The notes beneath the pieces were generated by a model. The model was given only the letters and a program-made list of their open reading frames with translations. It was not told the DNA's origin and searched no databases. Source: Bacillota bacterium (GTDB lineage: Bacteria > Bacillota > Negativicutes > CTSoil-072). From it: a stretch of DNA of 64,000 nt. The stretch spans positions 1-64,000 of the forward strand of contig JAGFZV010000008.1 in assembly GCA_017889545.1 (NCBI GenBank), written 5' to 3'. Positions 1 to 63,937 of this stretch are shown here, piece after piece (position 1 is the first letter of the stretch; each line of letters opens with the position of its first letter). The position numbers were made by a program, and so were the translations under genes.

Positions 1-294
<294 letters not shown>

Positions 295-3392: not shown

Positions 3393-4949
3393 TCATTTGT
3401 CGACCGTCACAAACACTTCAAACATTCGGTTCCAAGGAAAAGTTGCGTGTAATTCTGCTGTCGGAAGTCCGTATAGATACCGGCTGGCAAACTTATGAAA
3501 TTTCTTTTCGGCAGCCAGCACCAGCAAAGATTGCCGTTCATCAAGCATCACAAGGCTTCCACCCTGCGGATAGTTGATTTCCTTATTCAGCTCAGCACGA
3601 ATATTGGCCTGGTAAGCCCAGTCATCAAGATAGCGCACCGCTAATAACCGTAAACGATCATGGTCTGTCATCGAAGCTGCCAACATACCTTGGCCGATCG
3701 CATAGCCTGCCGTGTTGCTGGCAGTGTTCCAACCTGAATACGCAGCCAACTCTGGCAATAATTCCTGTGCAGACAGATGCATCAGCAGAGAATTGTCGGC
3801 TCCATTTCCAAAGGCAATATCGGCGACAGCCACCTTCTTGCCAGCCTGCAGCCACAATTTTGTCTCAGCTGCAAATGCCATTGTCTCTGCTGAAACCCTT
3901 GTCCTATTCAAAGCTGAATCTGCTTCATGCGTTTTCCCATCCGCCGGAGTATTCACCATCAATATCAGTTCCGCCAAAGCCGGAGTCAGCAATGGTACCC
4001 CGCCGGCAGCCAGAATGTGATCAAAAATAGTTTTCCCCGCAGGTTGATCTTCATAGGAAGGTATGGTAGAAGGACCAATTCCCGGGGCATAACGTACTAC
4101 TACAACCGGAATCCGGTTATGGAATTCATTCACTGCCCGGGTTAATAGAATCATGCCCAACTGATCCGCTCCTGGGAAAGAGGCAAATCGTCCGTCACTG
4201 CCCGCAGCTTGTTTCAGCAAAGCCCTGGTTTCTTTATGCGACTGTGAATACGGCGCCGTATCGTCACGACCAAGAATTAAATAGTTTAATTCGCCCTTTT
4301 GCATCAAGTAAATCAATTGAGTATTGATCTGGAAATTTTTATCCCGACGCGCCTGCCAATCCGCCATCACCTCAAGCGGAACTTCACTCACAAGAGCCGC
4401 TAACTCTTGTGCTTCTTGCTTGGTCAAACTTTGTACTTCTTTTTTATCTCTCAACGCTGAAATTCGAAAAATACGGTACCCATATTGTTCATAGTATGGA
4501 GGTTCCACCCCGCCTGCCGTAAATTGAGGCGTCCGCATGACCGTGCTGAAAACATATATTCGTGCGTTAGGGTGCAATCTTCGCAGATGTGTAAACCGTT
4601 CAACCCGTTTTTGCAGGGTTTCCGTTGACAGTTCATGCACCCGGGAAGGAACCAGCCCTCCATACAGCATCGAATCTGCCGATAAAACCAGTGAATCTGC
4701 TTCCAAAGAATGTTCTTCCACCCAGTTCCAAAGGCCGTCTGCATCCCCCCATTGATTGCGCGCAGCCAGTAATTCTTCCGGCGGAGTAAGTAACGTCGCG
4801 CCAGCCGCCTCAAAAGTATCCGTCACATATTGGAGACTGACGGGCCGATTATCTGCCGGTACATATAATAGTTTCTGCGCTTGAACCGGAACCACCGCCA
4901 GCCAGAAAAGCAAAAGCATCAATCCCGCCAGGCGGCATATCCGGTTCAC
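3393..4949 (-). CDS. DUF4127 family secreted protein
   Basis: The 518-residue product has a cleavable-looking N-terminal signal sequence (hydrophobic core [13 protein letters not shown], then AQA) followed by a domain matching the DUF4127 family, including [14 protein letters not shown] near the start and [13 protein letters not shown] around residue 92. The biochemical role is unknown. The GTG start overlaps the gyrA stop codon (GTGA), so it is translationally coupled to gyrA and forms its 3' partner. Coupling of an exported protein of unknown function to DNA gyrase is most likely incidental to genome layout. Confidence 0.8.
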
Positions 4950-7378
4950 TCATCCACCTTCTTTTCTAATGTGGCGACAGCAACAACCGTATCTTTTTCA
5001 CCTGTCTTCATTAATTTGACACCTTGCGTGCCACGCCGGATGACAGATATTTCTTCTATGTCAATCCGTATGACAATCCCTTCACTCGAAATCAGCATCA
5101 ATTCCTGCCCGGGGCGAACTAATTTAATTCCTACCACCTCGCCGGTTTTCTCGCTGATTTTGCTATTGATCGTTCCTTTTCCGCCTCGTCCCTGCAATCT
5201 GTATTCATCCACCAACGTCCGTTTGCCGTAGCCATTTGCAGTAAAGGTCAATAATTCATAATCTCTTTTAACGGTATCCATCCCAACCACATTGTCCTCC
5301 GGCTGCAGACGAATGCCGATAACCCCATGTGTGGATCGGCCCATGACCCGAACGTCTTGTTCTGCGAAACGGATAGCCAGACCTGACTTGGTCCCCATGA
5401 TAATTTGCTGTTCGCCGTCCGTCAGCTTTACTCCTATCAGATCGTCATCCTCGTCGAGTACAATAGCAATTAATCCGGTCCGGCGGGCGGTATCAAATTC
5501 CATCAGTTCCGTTTTCTTCACAACGCCTTTGCGAGTCGCCATAAATAGATATCGTTGACCGGTGAATTCTCTAATCGGGATAATGGCTGTGATCGTTTCC
5601 TTCGGCTCCAGGGGCAGAAGATTAATACTCGCGGTTCCCTTTGATGTGCGGCTTGCTTCCGGCAGTTCGTAGCCTTTCAAACGATATACCCGCCCACGGC
5701 TGGTGAAAAAGAGAATATTGTGATGCGTTGTCGCTATAAATAAATGTTCTACAAAATCGGCTTCTTTCGTCCCCATACCGGCAACGCCACGTCCACCGCG
5801 TTTCTGACTGCGATACGTATCAACAGGCAAGCGTTTTACATACCCATGATGAGTCACTGTAATCACAATGTCTTCAACGGCAATCAAATCTTCCATATCC
5901 ATACGTGACACATCACTAGTAATCACTGTGCGACGTTCATCCCCAAAACGTTTCCGTACATCCAGCAATTCTTCTTTGATCAGATTGAGCACTTTTTGTT
6001 CATCTGCCAAAACGGCCTCCAGCCACTCAATTGTTTCCATGACATCGCGATATTCCTGTTCGATTTTTTCTCTCTCTAATCCGGTTAAGCGCTGCAGACG
6101 CATTTCCAAGATCGCTTGCGCTTGCTTTTCACTTAAGGAAAATCCTTCAATTAGAGCGGCACGGGCAATATCAACCGTTTGCGACCGGCGAATTGCAGCA
6201 ATCACGGCATCCAAATGATCCAAGGCGATCTTTAACCCTGCCAAAATATGTTCCCGCGCTCTGGCCTTTTCCAATTCAAACCGTGTTCTGCGTGTAATCA
6301 CTTCTTTTTGGTGCTCTATATAATAGCCAATCACTTCATGCAGGTTCAAAGTTCGCGGGCGGCGGTCTACTAGCGCCAGCATATTTATTCCAAAGGATTC
6401 TTGCATCTGCGTATGTTTATACAATTGGTTCAGCACGACATCCGGGTTCGTATCCCGTCTCAATTCGATAACAATCCGCATACCGGTCCGGTCACTTTCA
6501 TCCCGTAAATCGGTAATCCCGTCAATCACTTTATCCCGGACCAGATCGGCAATCTTTTCAATCAGGCGGGCCTTATTCACTTGGTACGGAATTTCTGTTA
6601 CTAAAATACGATGCTTTCCATTGGCCATCTTCTCCACGCGCGCCTGTGCCCGCATTTTCACAACCCCGCGCCCCGTGGTATACGCTTGCTTAATTCCCTC
6701 CCGCCCTAAAATCAAGCCGGCGGTGGGAAAATCCGGCCCTTTGATCACTTGCATCAATTCGCTGATGGTGACGGCGGGGTTATCAATCATCATCACCACG
6801 CCATCCACGACTTCCCGCAAGTTATGCGGCGGAATATTGGTTGCCATGCCAACTGCAATACCGGAAGACCCGTTCACAAGCAAATTCGGAATCTTCGCCG
6901 GCAAAACAGTCGGTTCTTTCAACGACTCATCATAGTTCGGGGCAAAATCCACCGTGTCTTTTTCAATATCCGCCAGCATTTCTTCAGCAATTTTGGACAT
7001 TCGGACTTCTGTATACCGCATCGCCGCGGCAGAATCGCCGTCAACAGAACCAAAATTCCCATGCCCATCCACTTGAAGATAGCGAGTGGAGAAGGGCTGG
7101 GCCATTCGGACAATCGCGTCATAAACAGACGAATCACCATGAGGGTGATATTTACCGAGCACTTCACCGACAATCCTCGCCGATTTCTTGTATGGTTTGT
7201 TTGGTGTCATTCCTGCTTCCTGCATGGCATAGAGAATACGTCTATGAACCGGTTTCAGACCATCCCGGACATCCGGCAATGCCCGCATGACAATTACGCT
7301 CATGGCATAATCAATATATGAACTTTTCATCTCTTCTTCGATCCGTCTTGGCAGTACTTTTCCTAAACCAAAATCCAC
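4946..7378 (-). CDS. gyrA: DNA gyrase subunit A
   Basis: The 810-residue protein has the full GyrA architecture. The N-terminal breakage-reunion domain starts with [17 protein letters not shown]. The quinolone-resistance region is [13 protein letters not shown], with Ser and Asp at the positions corresponding to E. coli 83 and 87, so it looks wild-type. The active-site tyrosine is in AAMRYTE. The C-terminal beta-pinwheel carries the GyrA box QKRGGRG (around residue 530), which separates it from ParC. The GTG start at 7378 follows GAGGTG. gyrB is not in the window. Closeness to a 16S gene is common near oriC in Firmicutes, but no dnaA or origin is visible here. Confidence 0.97.
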
Positions 7379-39999: not shown

Positions 40000-40224
40000 T
40001 CAAGCCTTGCCAATATAAGCAAACCGTTTTTTTTCCTGACTGTCAACAATCAACGTTTCTTGAAACATCTCTTTGGGCCGCACCCATAGGCCGCGTTCAC
40101 CATATAACGCTTTATACAAAACCAGTCGCTCCATCGTTTCACTATGAGTAACTTCTCCGAGCACTTCGTACCGGTTGCCTTTATAATGCTCATAAATACC
40201 CAGGATAATTTTGTCATCTTGCAT
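40000..40224 (-). CDS. DUF1653 family protein
   Basis: The 74-residue protein matches DUF1653 (GIYEHYKGNRYEVLGEVTHSETMERLVLYKALYGERGLWVRP). This is written in sections: YEHYKGNRYEVLG, then HSETMERLVLYKALYG, then LWVRP. Its function is unknown. AAGGGG precedes the ATG. It converges on the cupin gene with nine bases between their ends. Confidence 0.85.
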   Translation of the reverse strand: MQDDKIILGIYEHYKGNRYEVLGEVTHSETMERLVLYKALYGERGLWVRPKEMFQETLIVDSQEKKRFAYIGKA

Positions 40225-40309
40225 TGATTACCCGCCCCTTTCCCACTATACTGAAATAATTAAGCAGCTTCTGTACATTCGCCTGCTATTCTATTCTGGA
40301 GTGATTTGT

Positions 40310-41677
40310 TTGAACCTGTTGTCTCCCGTCAGTCTTGCTTGTTTAGTTCTGGGTTATGTATTTTTTTATCTCTTGTATTCTTTTTTTCCTTCCACACTAT
40401 GGCTGATTTTCATCAATGCCATTGTCGTTACTGTGCTTATAACCTGCTTTCATAAACTAAAACGATCTTACCAACTTCTTTCCGGATCATTGATCGTAAT
40501 CGGCGTCTATTTTCTCCTCAGCAATCACGCTGCCGGTTCGGATTGGCTTTACGCTGTAATGCCGAATGCCGGTGTGGCTTCTTTACTAATCACAGTCCCT
40601 TTACTGGGAATGACGCTCTATTTTGAGCCTTATTTGGAATGTCTGCAGGAAGTAATGCCAAGGTATATTCAAAAACCTTTTCACTTTTACTCTGTCACAG
40701 CACTGTTCGGCGCCTTCTTATCTTCTCTTCTGAATATCGCTGCCATTCCTTTCCTTTTTCAGCTGTTTTCCGGCGTAGCCCAAAAATATCCGCCGCGCTT
40801 ATTTTATCATGCAATGTCACGCGGTATTTCAATGAACCTAATGTGGTCGCCGAGCTGGGTATCCGTTGCCGTTTCCCTTCAGGCTTCACATCTCAGTTGG
40901 CGCGAATTAATGCCCCTTGGGATTCCTCTTGCATTGGCAGGAATCATATTATCTCTCCTGCTTGGCCGATTGGAACTCTTCTTTCGTCCTCTGCCAAGCA
41001 GCCAGCACCCCCAATCAGCCAATACTCCTATCGATCCGGCCAAAATAAGATATCTCTATAAGCTGGCGGCACAAATGCTGCTGATTATTATCTTTATTCT
41101 ATTACTCGAGGTCATTACCCACAAAAGCGCATTGGTAACCGTTCCCTTAGTTTCCTTGTCCGTCCCTTTATTGCTGGCACTCTTGTTACGGCGAACAGCC
41201 GTATTTAAAAACCGGTTCCACACGTACTTCACGATACAATTGCCCAAAATGTACTCCAACCTTATTTTGTTTTCTGCCATCGGCATATTTGGCTATGGAT
41301 TGGGTATGTCCGAAATCCGTCACTTACTGCCGTCAACCATCCAACAGCTCGGTATTACTTCGCCGTTTCCCATGATCCTCCTTCTGATGAGTCTTGTTGG
41401 AACAGTTGGCCTTTTCGGCATTCACCCCATTGTCAGTATCTTTACCCTTTCTGTCGCAATAACGCCGGCATCCGTCGGTTTATCTCAACTGCAAATGTGC
41501 GGCGCATTTTTAAACGGCTATATGCTGTATACAATGCTATCGCCATTTGCCGGTACTGGGATTATATTTGCCGCCATAACCAAAACGAACAGCATTGACA
41601 TGAGTCTGAGATTAAACTTCTCTTACGCCCTATTGTTTGGTTTTATCAATACTCTGCTGTTGGTTTCTTTTTTCTAA
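40310..41677 (+). CDS. multi-pass membrane protein, possible permease
   Basis: The 455-residue protein is very hydrophobic, with about 11-12 membrane helices and few conserved polar motifs; MSRGISMNLMWSPSWVSVAV near residue 175 and FGIHPIVSIFTLSVAITPA near residue 370 look like re-entrant or substrate-site segments of anion or ion permeases (ArsB/NhaD or CitM-like superfamily). I cannot name a substrate. The TTG at 40310 is chosen as start because GGAG lies eight bases upstream and the preceding in-frame stretch lacks a ribosome site. It is a single-gene unit. Confidence 0.7.
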   Translation: MNLLSPVSLACLVLGYVFFYLLYSFFPSTLWLIFINAIVVTVLITCFHKLKRSYQLLSGSLIVIGVYFLLSNHAAGSDWLYAVMPNAGVASLLITVPLLGMTLYFEPYLECLQEVMPRYIQKPFHFYSVTALFGAFLSSLLNIAAIPFLFQLFSGVAQKYPPRLFYHAMSRGISMNLMWSPSWVSVAVSLQASHLSWRELMPLGIPLALAGIILSLLLGRLELFFRPLPSSQHPQSANTPIDPAKIRYLYKLAAQMLLIIIFILLLEVITHKSALVTVPLVSLSVPLLLALLLRRTAVFKNRFHTYFTIQLPKMYSNLILFSAIGIFGYGLGMSEIRHLLPSTIQQLGITSPFPMILLLMSLVGTVGLFGIHPIVSIFTLSVAITPASVGLSQLQMCGAFLNGYMLYTMLSPFAGTGIIFAAITKTNSIDMSLRLNFSYALLFGFINTLLLVSFF

Positions 41678-51083: not shown

Positions 51084-52892
51084 TTATTTGTCCAATCCCA
51101 ATTTCGCCAGAGTCTCTAATGTCGGAATGCCGTTATTATCCCAGCCCATTACCGCATAATAAGCATCCAGCATCGGCTCTAAATCAACTTTTTGCCCTTT
51201 GCTTTCTCCGGAAGACATCGTCTCTTGCGTAAACCGTTTGGGCAATGTATCTTCTTTCCGGGAAAAACCATTTTTAACATTAAACATCCGCTCCATGTTA
51301 AAAATCCGTTCCGCATTGAAAAGCATTTTTGCTTCTGTCAATTCGTAACCAGTAACCAGTTTAAAAGCTGCCAACTGATCGGGTCTTGGCAATCCATTTT
51401 GGCAAGTAGCACAAATACCAAACGAATCTACTGCCGCAAAATTCAGTTGTGTGCCGCGAACCATATTTTCCTTACCCGCTTCTTCAAAACGTGTTCCTGC
51501 TCCCATTTCACCGCCAAAGACAGGAGCCACCATATGATGCGCCCCTTTAGGCGATGTTGCATACGTCAAGGCCATTCCTTTGGCTCCACGCGGATCATAT
51601 GCAGCAAAAGCCATTCCTTTGGAATGGATAGCAAGGTCCGGTACGCCCCATTTTTCCGCGGCATACACGGGTCCTTCGGCCAAGATAGCGCCGATACCTT
51701 GACGGTAAGCGATCATCTCCAGCAATTTCGCTTCTGCAGCCCCGTTGCCGAAATTAAGTTCCAATCCATCTGTATCTTGTACTGTCAAAATTCCTTTTTC
51801 AAAACATTCCATTGCTAAGCCGATACAGCCGCCGGCAGACATGGAATCCATCCCGAGAGCGTCGCATACCTCAGAAACTTTCAGAACATCTTCCCAATTC
51901 GTCAATCCGCAGTTCGTACCCAACAACGCCAACGTTTCGAATTCCGGTCCTTCCAATTGCACATTGCCAAACCGGTCTGATTCTGTTTTGCAATTTTTGC
52001 TGCAGGCAATTGGGCAAGCGAAGCAGGCCGCATCTGTATAGACAACGCTATCGCGGAAGGAAGCCCCTTCAAAAATCTTCGATGCTTCCGCATAGCCTTC
52101 ACTAAAATTATTGGTGGCTAAAAATCCGGCATTGTTAATGTGCTCAACTAATTCATTCGTTCCATGCAACCGGCGAATTTTTGCTTTTGCGTTTTGCGCC
52201 GCAGCCGCATAAGCACGTTCGGTCAGCTCCATAAGCCCCTTCGGATCAGCAACCGCCACATCCTTCGATCCTCTTACCGCAATTGCTTTCAATCCTTTGG
52301 AACCCATCACGGTACCACAGCCGCCGCGGCCAAATTCACGATATACGTCCGCTGTGATGCAGGCATATTTGACTAAATTTTCACCGGCCGGTCCGATACA
52401 AGCAACGTGAATATTATGATCCGCCCCTAACTCTTGACGAATCAAATCATCTGTTGCTTTGATATCCTTACCCCATACATTTGCCGCCGATCGAATTTCG
52501 ATTTTCTCATCATCAATCCATAAGTATACCGGTTCCTCTGATTTTCCCTCAATAATGATTCCATCGTACCCGGCATATCGCAGTTCTGGTCCAAAATGAC
52601 CGCCGGCCAAGGAATAAGAATAGGTATTGGAAATAGGCGACTTAAATGCGACGTTAATCTTATTATTGCCCGGAACGAGTGTGCCGGCAAATGGGCCATT
52701 AAAGAAAATTAATTTGTTTTCTTCTCCCAACGGATCACAGAAGGGGGAAACTTCTTTATTGAGATAATAAGCCGATAGACCCCGGCCTCCAATATATTCG
52801 ATAAACATTTCCAACGGTAATTCTTCTGTTATAAAGGTTTTTTTGCTGAGATTGACGCGCAGCAACCGTCCTGCAATACCAATGTTGTTCAT
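51084..52892 (-). CDS. aor: aldehyde:ferredoxin oxidoreductase (tungsten-dependent family)
   Basis: The 602-residue protein is of the AOR family. The N-terminal domain binds the bis-pterin tungsten cofactor (LLRVNLSKKTF, GGRGLSAYYLN, GPFAGTLVPG); the [4Fe-4S] cluster ligands are CFACPIAC (C-x2-C-x3-C, around residue 289) with a later Cys in SFGICATC. It interconverts aldehydes and carboxylic acids with ferredoxin, usually reducing acids when reductant is abundant. GGAGG lies upstream of the ATG, directly after the ferredoxin gene. It is the canonical AOR cysteine spacing, unlike the paralogue at 62161-63903. Confidence 0.93.
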   Translation of the reverse strand: MNNIGIAGRLLRVNLSKKTFITEELPLEMFIEYIGGRGLSAYYLNKEVSPFCDPLGEENKLIFFNGPFAGTLVPGNNKINVAFKSPISNTYSYSLAGGHFGPELRYAGYDGIIIEGKSEEPVYLWIDDEKIEIRSAANVWGKDIKATDDLIRQELGADHNIHVACIGPAGENLVKYACITADVYREFGRGGCGTVMGSKGLKAIAVRGSKDVAVADPKGLMELTERAYAAAAQNAKAKIRRLHGTNELVEHINNAGFLATNNFSEGYAEASKIFEGASFRDSVVYTDAACFACPIACSKNCKTESDRFGNVQLEGPEFETLALLGTNCGLTNWEDVLKVSEVCDALGMDSMSAGGCIGLAMECFEKGILTVQDTDGLELNFGNGAAEAKLLEMIAYRQGIGAILAEGPVYAAEKWGVPDLAIHSKGMAFAAYDPRGAKGMALTYATSPKGAHHMVAPVFGGEMGAGTRFEEAGKENMVRGTQLNFAAVDSFGICATCQNGLPRPDQLAAFKLVTGYELTEAKMLFNAERIFNMERMFNVKNGFSRKEDTLPKRFTQETMSSGESKGQKVDLEPMLDAYYAVMGWDNNGIPTLETLAKLGLDK

Positions 52893-59655: not shown

Positions 59656-60084
59656 ATGGCAAACCAGGATTTTAAATCTGCTGCAGCTAAGTTGCTGGCT
59701 CAACATTCTTCTAATACGGAGAAAATCATGCCAAAGTCCCTAATTAACGAGAAAGAAGCGACAGTATCACCACCTGTTAAACTTTCAGTGCAAGAAACGC
59801 AAACAGAGTGTCAGCGAAAACGACCCGTAGTCGATCAGGAGCGCATCGTTTTGCCGGTATGGGATTCCCATGAAGAAGCCGAAGAAAAAACTGTTGTCTA
59901 TTCAAGCAAATGGAAGCTTCCACAAAGCAGCATGAAGGTTTCGATTATGCTTGGCCTCATTGTATTCTTTAGTTTGATCATGGTATTTTTCTTGCCGCCA
60001 ACAAAAATTGGCATTGTTGGAAACATTTTGTTAGGTATTTTAGCGGGAAGTGGGTTCGGATATATTATCAACAGGGAACTATAG
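59656..60084 (+). CDS. small membrane protein, partner of the ParA-OmpA fusion
   Basis: The 142-residue protein has a ~90-residue cytoplasmic part followed by two predicted membrane helices (about residues 95-114 and 119-139). Its N-terminus DFKSAAAKLLAQH closely resembles DFKIAVAKVLSHH at about residues 240-255 of the next gene, and its juxtamembrane KLPQSSMKVSIMLGLI resembles KLPNQKRTSMGLKVSVMIGLL in the same protein (the two share the KLP, LKVS/MKVS and GL elements). No family recognised. GGGGG precedes the ATG by seven bases. It is 173 bases upstream of the ParA-OmpA gene on the same strand. Confidence 0.7.
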   Translation: MANQDFKSAAAKLLAQHSSNTEKIMPKSLINEKEATVSPPVKLSVQETQTECQRKRPVVDQERIVLPVWDSHEEAEEKTVVYSSKWKLPQSSMKVSIMLGLIVFFSLIMVFFLPPTKIGIVGNILLGILAGSGFGYIINREL

Positions 60085-60257: not shown

Positions 60258-62072
60258 ATGATCATTATTTGCTTTGTAAATCAAAAAGGCGGCGTGGGCA
60301 AGACTACCTCTGTGATGAACATAGGTGCTGGGCTAGCTAAATTATCCAACCGCGTCTTGCTGATCGATCTTGACCCGCAAGAAAGTCTCAGCTATTGGCT
60401 TGGTATGACGGATGCGGATAAAACTATTTTTGATTTTTTTGACGGCAAAGCAAAGTTAGAGTCTTGCATCACTCCGCATACAGGTGGTTTTGACGTCATT
60501 CCTTCGAAGGAGATGCTGGCAACAATAACACCTAATGTTTATCAACTTAAGCGGGCCTTAGTCAATCTTGATTATGATTTTGTCTTGTTGGATTGTTCTC
60601 CCACTCTGGGAATGACGACGTTGGCAGCGCTTACAGCTGCGCACTGGGTTATCATTCCAATGTGTCCAGACTTACTGAGTATTAAAGGAATGAGTCAGTT
60701 ACTCGGGACCATTCAAACCATTCGAGAGCAAACCAACTCTACCATAATCTTAAAAAATGTTATCGCAACACGCTATGACAGTTGCCATAAAATGCATAGA
60801 GAGGTCTTAGAACAAATTGATGCTTTTCTCGATGGAGTGCCTGTCTACACCGTGCGGGAAGATATTTCCGTTTCGGAAAGTCCGGTTTCAGGTATGAGCG
60901 TAATGGATTATAGACCAGAGAGTACCGGCGCTGAAGATTATATGGCTATTGTTAAGGGCTTAATCGATAGCAAGCATGATTTCAAAATTGCGGTAGCTAA
61001 GGTATTGTCTCATCATTTTCCTAAGCAGGCGGATACTGTTTCCAGATCATCGGTTAACCAACATGCAGCGGCAATAGGATCACCTATCATGATTCCAGTA
61101 TCGGAAGAAAAAGAAGAAGAGCAAGCTATACCAGTTTCTCCTCCTATTCAAGAAGAACCGGCAAACGCACCGCCTGTCATTATCCCGGTGCCGGAAGAAA
61201 AAGAAGAAGAGCAAGCTATACCAGTTTCTCCGCCTATTCAGGAAGAACCGGCAATAGCCCCGCCTGTCATTATCCCGGTGCCGGAAGAAAAAGAAGCAGA
61301 GCAAGCTGTACCAGTTTCTCCGCCTACTCAGGAGGAACCGGCAATAGCCCCGCCTGTCATTATCCCGGTACCGGAAGAAAAAGAAGAGGAGCAAGCTATA
61401 CCAGTTTCTCCGCCTACTCAGGAGGAACCGGCAATAGCCCCGCCTGCAACTCTGAGCCGCTGCAATAAGAAGCTCCCTAATCAGAAGCGCACTTCAATGG
61501 GACTGAAGGTCTCGGTTATGATCGGCCTCCTTCTGTCAGCTACTGCAATCACTGTATTGCTGGTGCAATCCTCTCCGACCGCACAGCAACCGGCAGCAAT
61601 GCAGCAGCAGGTAGAAGCACAGCAACCGGAGCCAACGCAGCCGCAGGCAGCAACGCAGCAACAAGCAGCAACGCAGCAACAAGCAACAACGCAGCCGCAA
61701 GCAACAACGCAGCCGCCTTCACCGGTGATCAAACCAGACAAGATGATCTTAAAAGGCGTTCAATTCGATTATGATAAAGATACTCTACAGCCGCAGTCTT
61801 ACCCGATTCTCAATAACATTGTCACATTGGCCAAACAGAATCCTTCATGGACCTTCCGTTTAACCGGCCATACCGACAGTTGGGGCGATGAGGCCTACAA
61901 TATGGATCTTTCCTTGCGCAGGGTGCAAAGTGTCAAACGATACTTAATTAGCCAAGGAGTAGCGCCTAACCGACTTGTTATAGTGGGAAAAGGCCGAAGT
62001 GAAAGGATCACAACAAATGATACTGCCGAAGGACGAGCCCAAAATCGCCGCGTAGAACTAGAAGTCGAATGA
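60258..62072 (+). CDS. ParA ATPase - repeat - transmembrane - OmpA fusion protein
   Basis: The 604-residue protein joins four parts. Residues 1 to ~250 are a ParA/MinD-type ATPase with deviant Walker A KGGVGKTTS, Walker A' LIDLDPQESLS and Walker B FVLLDCSPTLG. Residues 279-398 are four 30-residue repeats rich in Pro and Glu. A single membrane helix lies at about 417-436 (LKVSVMIGLLLSATAITVLL). A Gln/Thr/Pro-rich spacer leads to a C-terminal OmpA/Pal-type peptidoglycan-binding domain (~495-604) with the diagnostic GHTDSWGDEAYN, LSLRRVQSV and NRRVELEVE. The topology is ATPase in the cytoplasm, OmpA in the periplasm. No parB is nearby. Function is unknown; anchoring a positioning ATPase to the cell wall is an inference. 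Confidence 0.88.
   Translation: MIIICFVNQKGGVGKTTSVMNIGAGLAKLSNRVLLIDLDPQESLSYWLGMTDADKTIFDFFDGKAKLESCITPHTGGFDVIPSKEMLATITPNVYQLKRALVNLDYDFVLLDCSPTLGMTTLAALTAAHWVIIPMCPDLLSIKGMSQLLGTIQTIREQTNSTIILKNVIATRYDSCHKMHREVLEQIDAFLDGVPVYTVREDISVSESPVSGMSVMDYRPESTGAEDYMAIVKGLIDSKHDFKIAVAKVLSHHFPKQADTVSRSSVNQHAAAIGSPIMIPVSEEKEEEQAIPVSPPIQEEPANAPPVIIPVPEEKEEEQAIPVSPPIQEEPAIAPPVIIPVPEEKEAEQAVPVSPPTQEEPAIAPPVIIPVPEEKEEEQAIPVSPPTQEEPAIAPPATLSRCNKKLPNQKRTSMGLKVSVMIGLLLSATAITVLLVQSSPTAQQPAAMQQQVEAQQPEPTQPQAATQQQAATQQQATTQPQATTQPPSPVIKPDKMILKGVQFDYDKDTLQPQSYPILNNIVTLAKQNPSWTFRLTGHTDSWGDEAYNMDLSLRRVQSVKRYLISQGVAPNRLVIVGKGRSERITTNDTAEGRAQNRRVELEVE
61092..61451 (+). repeat. four tandem 90-bp coding repeats
   Basis: Units start near 61092, 61182, 61272 and 61362 and encode a 30-residue repeat of the form IPV[PS]EEKE[EA]EQA, [IV]PVSPP[IT]QEEPA, [IN]APPVI. 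The units are nearly identical in DNA, so copy number may vary between strains by slippage or recombination. Confidence 0.95.
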
Positions 62073-62105: not shown

Positions 62106-62160
62106 GCAAAAAAAGATGGGCGCAAACATGTCCCATGTCTGCACCCATCTTTTTTTTTGC
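62106..62160. terminator. bidirectional terminator between the ParA-OmpA gene and the second AOR
   Basis: GCAAAAAAAGATGGG (62106-62120) pairs with CCCATC and the following T-run to GC (62144-62160), with an inner ACATG/CATGT stem. It ends transcripts of the two convergent genes. Confidence 0.9.
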
Positions 62161-63903
62161 TTAGAAATTATAAACCTCATCAATTTCTTCCGGCGTGAAA
62201 TCCCACACAGCATTATGCGGAGCACAAGGTTCGTATTCAAAGAACTCCGGCAATCGATCATGCGCATTCGAGAAGCCAGCTGCCTTATTAAAGCCTCGTT
62301 CAACTTTTAATACTGATTTCCCAAGAGCAGTCACATCATCGGCCGTAAGCGATAAGCCATAACGGGCATTAATCATTTCAATCAAGGCATTGAACCCTTC
62401 TGGAATATCCAAAATTGCGAATGCAATAAATAAACACATGCCTGTGCTATCTACCGCCGCAGTAGCAATTTGCAGATTACGGGAAAGCTCGATTTGCCCT
62501 TCTTTTTTAAGCGGATCAACGAAGCCGCCGATTTTCAAAATATTTGTAGCAATAGCATAGCCTGAAGTGTGGTCAGCCCCCATCGGTGTAGTGGCATATG
62601 TCAAACCGATTCCCTTAATCGCCCGGGGGTCATACGCAGGGATCGCCTGATCCTTAACAACCGGAACACGGAACAAACCACAAAGTTTACCAACAATCGA
62701 CGCACCGCCGCCAATAATACGTCCTAATGGAGTAGGAACAGCAATTCCTTTAACCGCTTTCAAAGCAGCTTTTCCATCGCCCCAGGGAAGTAACCCGCCT
62801 TCCATCGCTACTCCAATTGCTACAGAAACATCAATCGAATCTACGCCAATATCATCCATGGCACGGTCTAAATATGCAATATCATCTAACTCTTTAATGC
62901 CTGCATTAGCGCCAAGAGCCCATACTGTTTCGTATTCGAAGCCACTGGTAATATACTGGCCATTTGCGTCTGGATACCACTGAGAACACCTCACAATACA
63001 TCCTGCATGGCAACCATGTGACACTTTGCCTTCACCGCCACGTTCGGTTATCGTAGCATTCAAAGTTTCACCGCTAAACTTATCATTCCAATCTATACGA
63101 CCAGAAGTAAAGTTTTTTGCCGGAAGACCACCAGCTTCATTGACAATATTAACCAACACATCCGTACCATAAGCCGCAAGTGCCTGACCAGTAACAGGAT
63201 GTTTCAACAAAGCTTGTGCAAATGTTTTTGCCGCTGCTTTAAATTCCTCTGGTTTTGCGATCGGGACACTCGCAGGGGCTCCGGTATCATCAATAATGAT
63301 CGCCTTTACCTTTTTTGAACCTAAAACAGCACCCAATCCCCCACGACCAGCGCTGCGAATGTTACTTTCAGGATCTTTAAAAGAAATGTTAGCAGTTGGC
63401 AAGCGATATTCGCCTGCTGGTCCTGCTAAAGCAACACCAACTTTCGGTCCGTATTTCGCATTCAACATTTGAATTGCTTCGTAATTTCCACATCCGCCAA
63501 TAATTTCTGCAGGTGCATCTTCGATTGTAACGCCATTCATAGTGACTCTAACAATATAAAATTTGTCAACATCCGGCATCCCTTCAATGACTAACGCCTT
63601 GATACCCATCTTAGCCATTTTTTGTGAGAAAGTTCCGCCCGTGTTGCTTTCTTTAATGGTACCAGTAAGCGGGCTTTTTCCTCCGACAGAAAGTCTGCCG
63701 GATTGGGCTGCCGTCGTTCCGCTCAGCAAGCCTGGGGCAAAAATCAATTTGTTATTTTTGCCTAGTGCATGACAGGTCGGTTTTACTTCATCAGCAATAA
63801 AATTAGACGTTAATGCTCGACCAGCCAACCCCAAATACTTTTCTGGTGTTTCGAGAATGGAGACCTTTTTTTCTGTCATGTCGACACGAATAAACTTGTT
63901 CAC
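62161..63903 (-). CDS. aldehyde:ferredoxin oxidoreductase family protein, YdhV-like
   Basis: The 581-residue protein is of the AOR family (VNKFIRVDMTEKKVSIL start, GLAGRALTSNFIADEV, GRLSVGGKSPLTG). Its [4Fe-4S] ligands are GCHAGCIVRCS (C-x3-C-x3-C), the spacing of YdhV-type proteins, with a last Cys in DSTGMCLFIAF. The substrate is unknown. The start is GTG at 63903, seven bases after GGGGG; the longer in-frame ATG has no ribosome site and would overlap the leader. No ferredoxin or MoaD-like gene is next to it. It is only about 30% like the AOR at 51084 by eye; this is a rough impression, not a measurement. Confidence 0.88.
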   Translation of the reverse strand: MNKFIRVDMTEKKVSILETPEKYLGLAGRALTSNFIADEVKPTCHALGKNNKLIFAPGLLSGTTAAQSGRLSVGGKSPLTGTIKESNTGGTFSQKMAKMGIKALVIEGMPDVDKFYIVRVTMNGVTIEDAPAEIIGGCGNYEAIQMLNAKYGPKVGVALAGPAGEYRLPTANISFKDPESNIRSAGRGGLGAVLGSKKVKAIIIDDTGAPASVPIAKPEEFKAAAKTFAQALLKHPVTGQALAAYGTDVLVNIVNEAGGLPAKNFTSGRIDWNDKFSGETLNATITERGGEGKVSHGCHAGCIVRCSQWYPDANGQYITSGFEYETVWALGANAGIKELDDIAYLDRAMDDIGVDSIDVSVAIGVAMEGGLLPWGDGKAALKAVKGIAVPTPLGRIIGGGASIVGKLCGLFRVPVVKDQAIPAYDPRAIKGIGLTYATTPMGADHTSGYAIATNILKIGGFVDPLKKEGQIELSRNLQIATAAVDSTGMCLFIAFAILDIPEGFNALIEMINARYGLSLTADDVTALGKSVLKVERGFNKAAGFSNAHDRLPEFFEYEPCAPHNAVWDFTPEEIDEVYNF

Positions 63904-63937
63904 AAAAATCCCCCTTAATAAATTTACTTTAGCCAAA

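Follow-up and report, generated by a model that had tools for sequence, protein, structure and literature searches.

The window (the whole stretch of 64,000 nucleotides of DNA that was analysed) encodes a protein in which a ParA ATPase, a transmembrane (TM) helix and an OmpA domain are joined in one chain, and this fusion is a genuine, conserved yet rare architecture. Most likely the protein is a wall-anchored ATPase resembling MinD and HubP, whose ATP-dependent dimer would recruit a small membrane protein as its partner. That it works as a wall-anchored switch of the ParA/MinD type with a membrane partner is a proposal whose chances of being right or wrong appear evenly balanced. The literature searched contained no described system with a ParA-TM-OmpA layout, in agreement with an earlier note on this DNA, which had stated that no system with such an arrangement was known. 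The note had regarded the fusion as a single protein; the fusion is indeed real, but this view missed that it belongs to a two-gene module with a small membrane protein encoded upstream and a motif shared by both products. The features are:

59656-60084, plus strand: small membrane protein of 142 amino acids with the N-terminal motif MANQDFKSAAAKLLAQH, a disordered middle and a two-TM C-terminus (ORF, orthologues)
60258-62072, plus strand: fusion of 604 amino acids in the order ParA, partner motif, linker, TM, linker, OmpA (ORF, Pfam, orthologue L048:790-2265)
60258-60968, plus strand: deviant Walker ATPase domain of the ParA/Soj type, amino acids 1-237 (AAA_31, AF2, Foldseek)
60972-61022, plus strand: copy of the N-terminal motif of the small putative partner, HDFKIAVAKVLSHHF region, amino acids 239-255, 17 residues, helical (sequence comparison, AF2)
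61102-61446, plus strand: four Pro/Glu-rich tandem repeats of 30 amino acids, probably a cytoplasmic linker (TRF)
61494-61577, plus strand: single TM helix, amino acids 413-440, preceded by a K/R cluster (hydropathy)
61578-61735, plus strand: Q/P/T-rich linker, probably periplasmic (sequence, TRF)
61764-62048, plus strand: OmpA/Pal-type domain, predicted to bind peptidoglycan, with D540 and R555 retained (PF00691, PDB matches)
62108-62159, plus strand: probable intrinsic terminator at the end of the two-gene unit, with a AAAAAGATGGGTGC-type hairpin and a T run after it (identified by eye; absent from the list of a simple terminator scan)

The fusion gene is an open reading frame of 604 codons with an ATG start and zero internal stops. 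A Pfam search of the whole protein, as suggested in the earlier note, yielded two matches far over their cut-offs, namely AAA_31 (amino acids 3-163, E-value 3.4e-39) and OmpA (PF00691, amino acids 503-597, E-value 1.3e-21, 77 bits against a cut-off of 27.2 bits). The repeat array comprises 3.8 copies of 90 nt with 94% match (TRF), and amino acids 413-440 are the sole strong hydrophobic segment of the protein. Together these analyses bear out the single unbroken frame with ParA motifs, four 30-residue repeats, one TM helix and an OmpA domain that had been described before. Hydropathy and charge indicate that the fusion is probably oriented with its N-terminus inside and its C-terminus outside. 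With BamA being present in the window's genome the organism is a diderm, and both points support the previous idea of an ATPase tethered to the wall of a diderm cell.

When 380 genomes of the class were searched with profiles of the ParA and of the small protein, the module was found in three of them (the window's genome, G000, as well as G147 and G019) and was fused in two of these three. The search for the same fusion that the note had called for thus uncovered a second case in G147, a genome of another genus and family, whose orthologue of 492 amino acids (L048:790-2265) has the same domain order and is 78% identical to the window protein in the ParA domain and 81% in the OmpA domain. Between both orthologues, each half of the fusion shows a pN of about 0.12, with pS saturated at about 0.8, which indicates strong purifying selection. 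The linker of the G147 protein is short and repeat-free. As the Pro/Glu repeats are absent there, they appear to be a spacer; their former interpretation as a flexible cytoplasmic linker is probably correct, but the repeats as such are not conserved. In G019, an unfused parA overlaps with the beginning of the small-TM gene that follows it, and no OmpA domain is found nearby; the two genes are thus arranged in another order than in the fused forms. Among 398 sampled genomes of the phylum there was no further clear member. Nor does a conserved neighbourhood name a cargo, as the flanks differ in all three genomes.

The OmpA domain of the fusion is predicted to bind peptidoglycan, as the ligand residues are retained. 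In OmpA of A. baumannii, D271 and R286 form the diaminopimelate-binding pair (PMC6572160). D540 and R555 of the fusion align with this pair in an alignment that was placed by hand using the conserved D-x14-R spacing, and the same Asp and Arg are also conserved in P. aeruginosa OprF, which is, among others, a PDB match of the domain. No LysM domain was matched in the fusion by Pfam; the OmpA domain stands in its place. The nearest relative found for this domain is an outer-membrane OmpA protein of a related organism (60%), and the only other OmpA-domain protein in the window's genome is MotB. These two observations, and the fact that the OmpA domain is as conserved as the ATPase, would also fit a static envelope anchor comparable to MotB or TssL, in which dimerisation of ParA would do no more than cluster or gate the OmpA domains and would thereby control wall attachment instead of a cargo. 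This explanation appears rather unlikely: the unfused parA of G019 has no adjoining OmpA domain, which suggests that wall binding is an addition, all Walker residues are retained, and the partner motif is kept in both of its copies.

The proposal of a switch with a membrane partner rests on the small-TM gene (59656-60084), which lies directly upstream of the fusion gene and occupies the same place in G147. Its product of 142 amino acids has no family in Pfam, NCBIfam or PHROGs. The best conserved stretch across the three small proteins are the N-terminal 17 amino acids, MAxx[DE]FKxAAAKLLAQH, with the K, Q and H positions being conserved, and both fusions repeat this motif immediately after the ATPase as HDFKxAVAKxLxxH. 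The link between the small protein and the fusion is based on the comparison of the motifs, the count of a DNA pattern and an alignment of the TM helices. Searched with a degenerate DNA pattern of the motif, the three whole genomes have exactly five sites (two each in G000 and G147, one in G019), all of them within the module, and the reversed pattern, used as control, has none. In a BLASTP comparison, the small protein had no match to the 27-amino-acid motif alone. For the TM helix of the window's fusion and TM1 of the small protein, the alignment score is 43; shuffles gave 18.3 +/- 3.6, and none of 2000 scored as high. The corresponding similarity in G147 is weak (shuffle p 0.10).

ParA/MinD ATPases have three interfaces, one for the dimer, one for the matrix (nucleoid or membrane) and one for a partner, which usually contacts the dimer by a charged N-terminal peptide (PMC10241942; for ParB also PMC12462528). 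The small protein possesses such a conserved, charged and helical N-terminal peptide and is encoded beside the parA gene. By this rule it is probably the partner that acts in trans on the ParA fusion, which would carry a second copy of the peptide in cis, and stimulation of the ATPase would be its predicted role by analogy with other ParA partners. Two features of the motif speak against a partner function: in the AF2 monomer the in-cis copy is undocked and forms a straight extension of the last ParA helix (223-253), and its hydrophobic moment is modest, lower than that of the organism's own ParB peptide. Docking of a partner normally requires the ParA dimer. The position of the motif directly after the last ParA helix, where MinD has its targeting sequence, and its mild amphipathicity might alternatively point to a membrane-targeting helix of the MinD type that is common to both proteins and is not a docking peptide. 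This is unlikely, as the small protein and the fusion both have TM helices already, as the K, Q and H conserved in the small proteins are not demanded by lipid binding, and as the motif in G019 is located at the N-terminus of a separate TM protein and not on ParA.

Regarding the ATPase domain of the proposed switch, the deviant Walker A (KGGVGKTT), A′ (LLIDLDPQ) and B (VLLDC) motifs are present. The signature Lys, the Walker A Lys, the A′ Asp and the Walker B Asp are identical to those of 24 of 24 other ParAs, and all catalytic positions match Soj. Amino acids 1-264 were modelled by AF2 with a pLDDT of 95, and the best Foldseek matches of the domain are Soj structures (TM-scores 0.84-0.91). 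The MinD model TIGR01968 gave 50.7 bits against a cut-off of 212.9 and the archaeal MinD model 97 against 201.75; judged by its sequence, the ATPase is a ParA rather than a MinD. In a tree the three ParAs of the module form one clade on a long branch, well apart from Soj. Their longest invariant run (amino acids 136-154), which exceeds Walker A, would fit a conserved partner site.

In B. subtilis Soj, the basic residues R189 and R218 are needed for non-specific DNA binding (PMC3778016). In columns of the alignment set by hand from Soj motifs, these positions are occupied by C and S in the window's fusion, by G and F in the G147 fusion and by R and S in the unfused ParA of G019, compared to R in 24 of 24 and R or K in 22 of 24 other ParAs. 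The loss of both basic residues in both fusions makes a ParA-style nucleoid gradient unlikely. With the DNA-binding residues lost and a TM helix and an OmpA domain added, the matrix of the fusion is most likely the membrane plus the wall. No parB gene adjoins the fusion; the genome's own soj-parB pair lies elsewhere and is intact. This chromosomal pair (L002, G000 C38:83193) is located about 21 kb downstream on the same contig. Its vicinity to the fusion locus, the Soj-like fold and closest structures and the one DNA-binding residue retained in G019 could be taken to mean that the ParA still binds nucleoid DNA by other residues and tethers chromosome, membrane and wall. With both known basic positions being lost in both fusions and the genome having an intact Soj and ParB of its own, this is very unlikely.

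An assembly or frameshift artefact joining two genes, a doubt raised in the earlier note and conceivable for a draft contig with a tandem repeat within the gene, has a negligible probability, as the independent G147 orthologue has the same order with a different, repeat-free linker, which rules out a chimeric assembly, and as both halves are under purifying selection. The second doubt, that ATPase and OmpA domain might occur apart in all close relatives, was likewise removed by the two fused forms.

Under the proposed wall-anchored switch, the ancestor would have been an operon of parA and, after it, the gene of a small membrane protein. The N-terminal helix of this protein (MAxxFKxAAAKLLAQH) would dock on the ParA dimer in its ATP-bound state, in the way that ParB, McdB and other partners use their N-termini on their own ATPases. 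In the fusion lineage, ParA would have been joined to one copy of its partner (motif, linker and TM1), the C-terminus of this copy would have been exchanged for a linker and an OmpA domain, and a separate copy would have stayed upstream. The middle of the fusion is most simply explained as such a partner copy, as the unfused G019 operon suggests, and the fusion thus most likely consists of ParA, a copy of its own membrane partner and a captured OmpA domain. The ATPase would be kept at the inner membrane, with OmpA fastening it to peptidoglycan. ATP binding would dimerise neighbouring fusion molecules, and the free two-TM partner would be recruited to the dimer by its motif. The in-cis copy may compete or stimulate hydrolysis, which would free the partner. 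The outcome would be a patch fixed to the wall at which a membrane protein is caught and let go, with one polypeptide serving as both the HubP-like landmark and its ParA client. Tentatively, dimerisation of ParA might even be transmitted via the one TM helix to the wall domain of the same chain, so that attachment between inner membrane and peptidoglycan is switched or patterned in addition to a membrane cargo handled via the free two-TM partner, with the ParA cycle running on the wall and not on a nucleoid or lipid surface. Against the partner model stand the weak TM1 similarity in G147, the different gene order of fused and unfused forms, the one of two DNA-binding residues (R/S) kept in G019 and the lack of a conserved third gene for a cargo.

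The module shares features with several known systems. Like Soj/ParA of ParABS, the fusion has the ATPase fold, all catalytic motifs and a candidate partner with an N-terminal helical peptide, but it lacks the DNA-binding basic residues and parB/parS and is covalently joined to a TM helix and OmpA. With MinD/MinE and FlhG it shares a helix directly after the ATPase core and, presumably, action at the inner membrane; their reversible amphipathic tail contrasts with its permanent TM anchor and predicted wall-binding domain. HubP, a wall-binding protein with LysM, TM and acidic repeats, recruits ParA-family ATPases to the pole (PMC8789113). Common to HubP and the fusion are a periplasmic domain of a peptidoglycan-binding type, one TM helix, acidic cytoplasmic repeats and the link to a ParA-family ATPase. 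HubP, however, recruits ParA, ParC and FlhG in trans and has no ATPase domain, whereas the fusion is one chain with OmpA instead of LysM. As in the orphan ParA pairs PpfA/TlpT, ParC/ParP and McdA/McdB, the parA gene adjoins a partner with a conserved N-terminal peptide, most clearly in G019; unlike there, the putative partner is a membrane protein with two TM helices, and two genomes have it fused to ParA. MotB and long TssL also combine a cytoplasmic part, a TM helix and a periplasmic, peptidoglycan-binding OmpA domain, but have no ATPase and are part of an ion-driven motor or a T6SS.

For known A/D ATPases, the matrix is the nucleoid or a membrane surface. In this module the cell wall appears to replace it, with ATPase, partner and anchor in one protein. 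The occurrence of fused and unfused forms within one class offers a natural experiment on the matrix and partner needs of ParA. The module might serve diderm Firmicutes, which lack most of the classical tethers, as a device for polarity or for attachment of the envelope.

Outside the phylum, the survey for fusions covered plasmids, phages and viral contigs. A mobile-element or plasmid origin was rejected, as the best tblastn matches in plasmids and phages cover the ParA part only; no record among the phages and 5000 plasmid records covers 80% of the fusion query. Among the 80 loci listed in the viral scan there were only ParA homologues, a viral scan with the small protein gave no match, and the scan of genome contigs for the fusion gave only one OmpA match, in Fibrobacter. 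The related ParAs L009 and L055 share some positions with the fusions, but were dismissed as they have no motif and no TM partner. L009 (G002, 1468-2253) is a non-Soj ParA with the TYRPDSxGAKDY-type positions common to the fusions; its neighbours, read by eye, are a TPR gene, a CheW-like gene and an MCP-like ORF. The ParA of L055 neighbours an SLH protein and a coiled coil. In L074 (G635, 4590-5695), a ParA is followed by an overlapping gene for a 119-amino-acid coiled-coil protein with a hydrophobic C-terminal tail, close to a large SLH-domain protein; this may be another pair of a ParA and a membrane partner.

The second TM helix of the small protein is glycine-rich (window 60010-60080; L008 2507-2560), and that of the G019 protein weakly resembles the glycine-zipper 2TM domain, below the cut-off. 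Elsewhere in the window, the contig opens inside a 16S rRNA gene (1-294, minus strand), of which the 5′ part only is present, cut at the contig end. A multi-TM protein of 488 amino acids (40211-41677, plus strand) has no Pfam or PHROGs family. Two aldehyde:ferredoxin oxidoreductase-like genes are located at 51084-52892 and 62161-63936 (minus strand), with the second being the weaker match.
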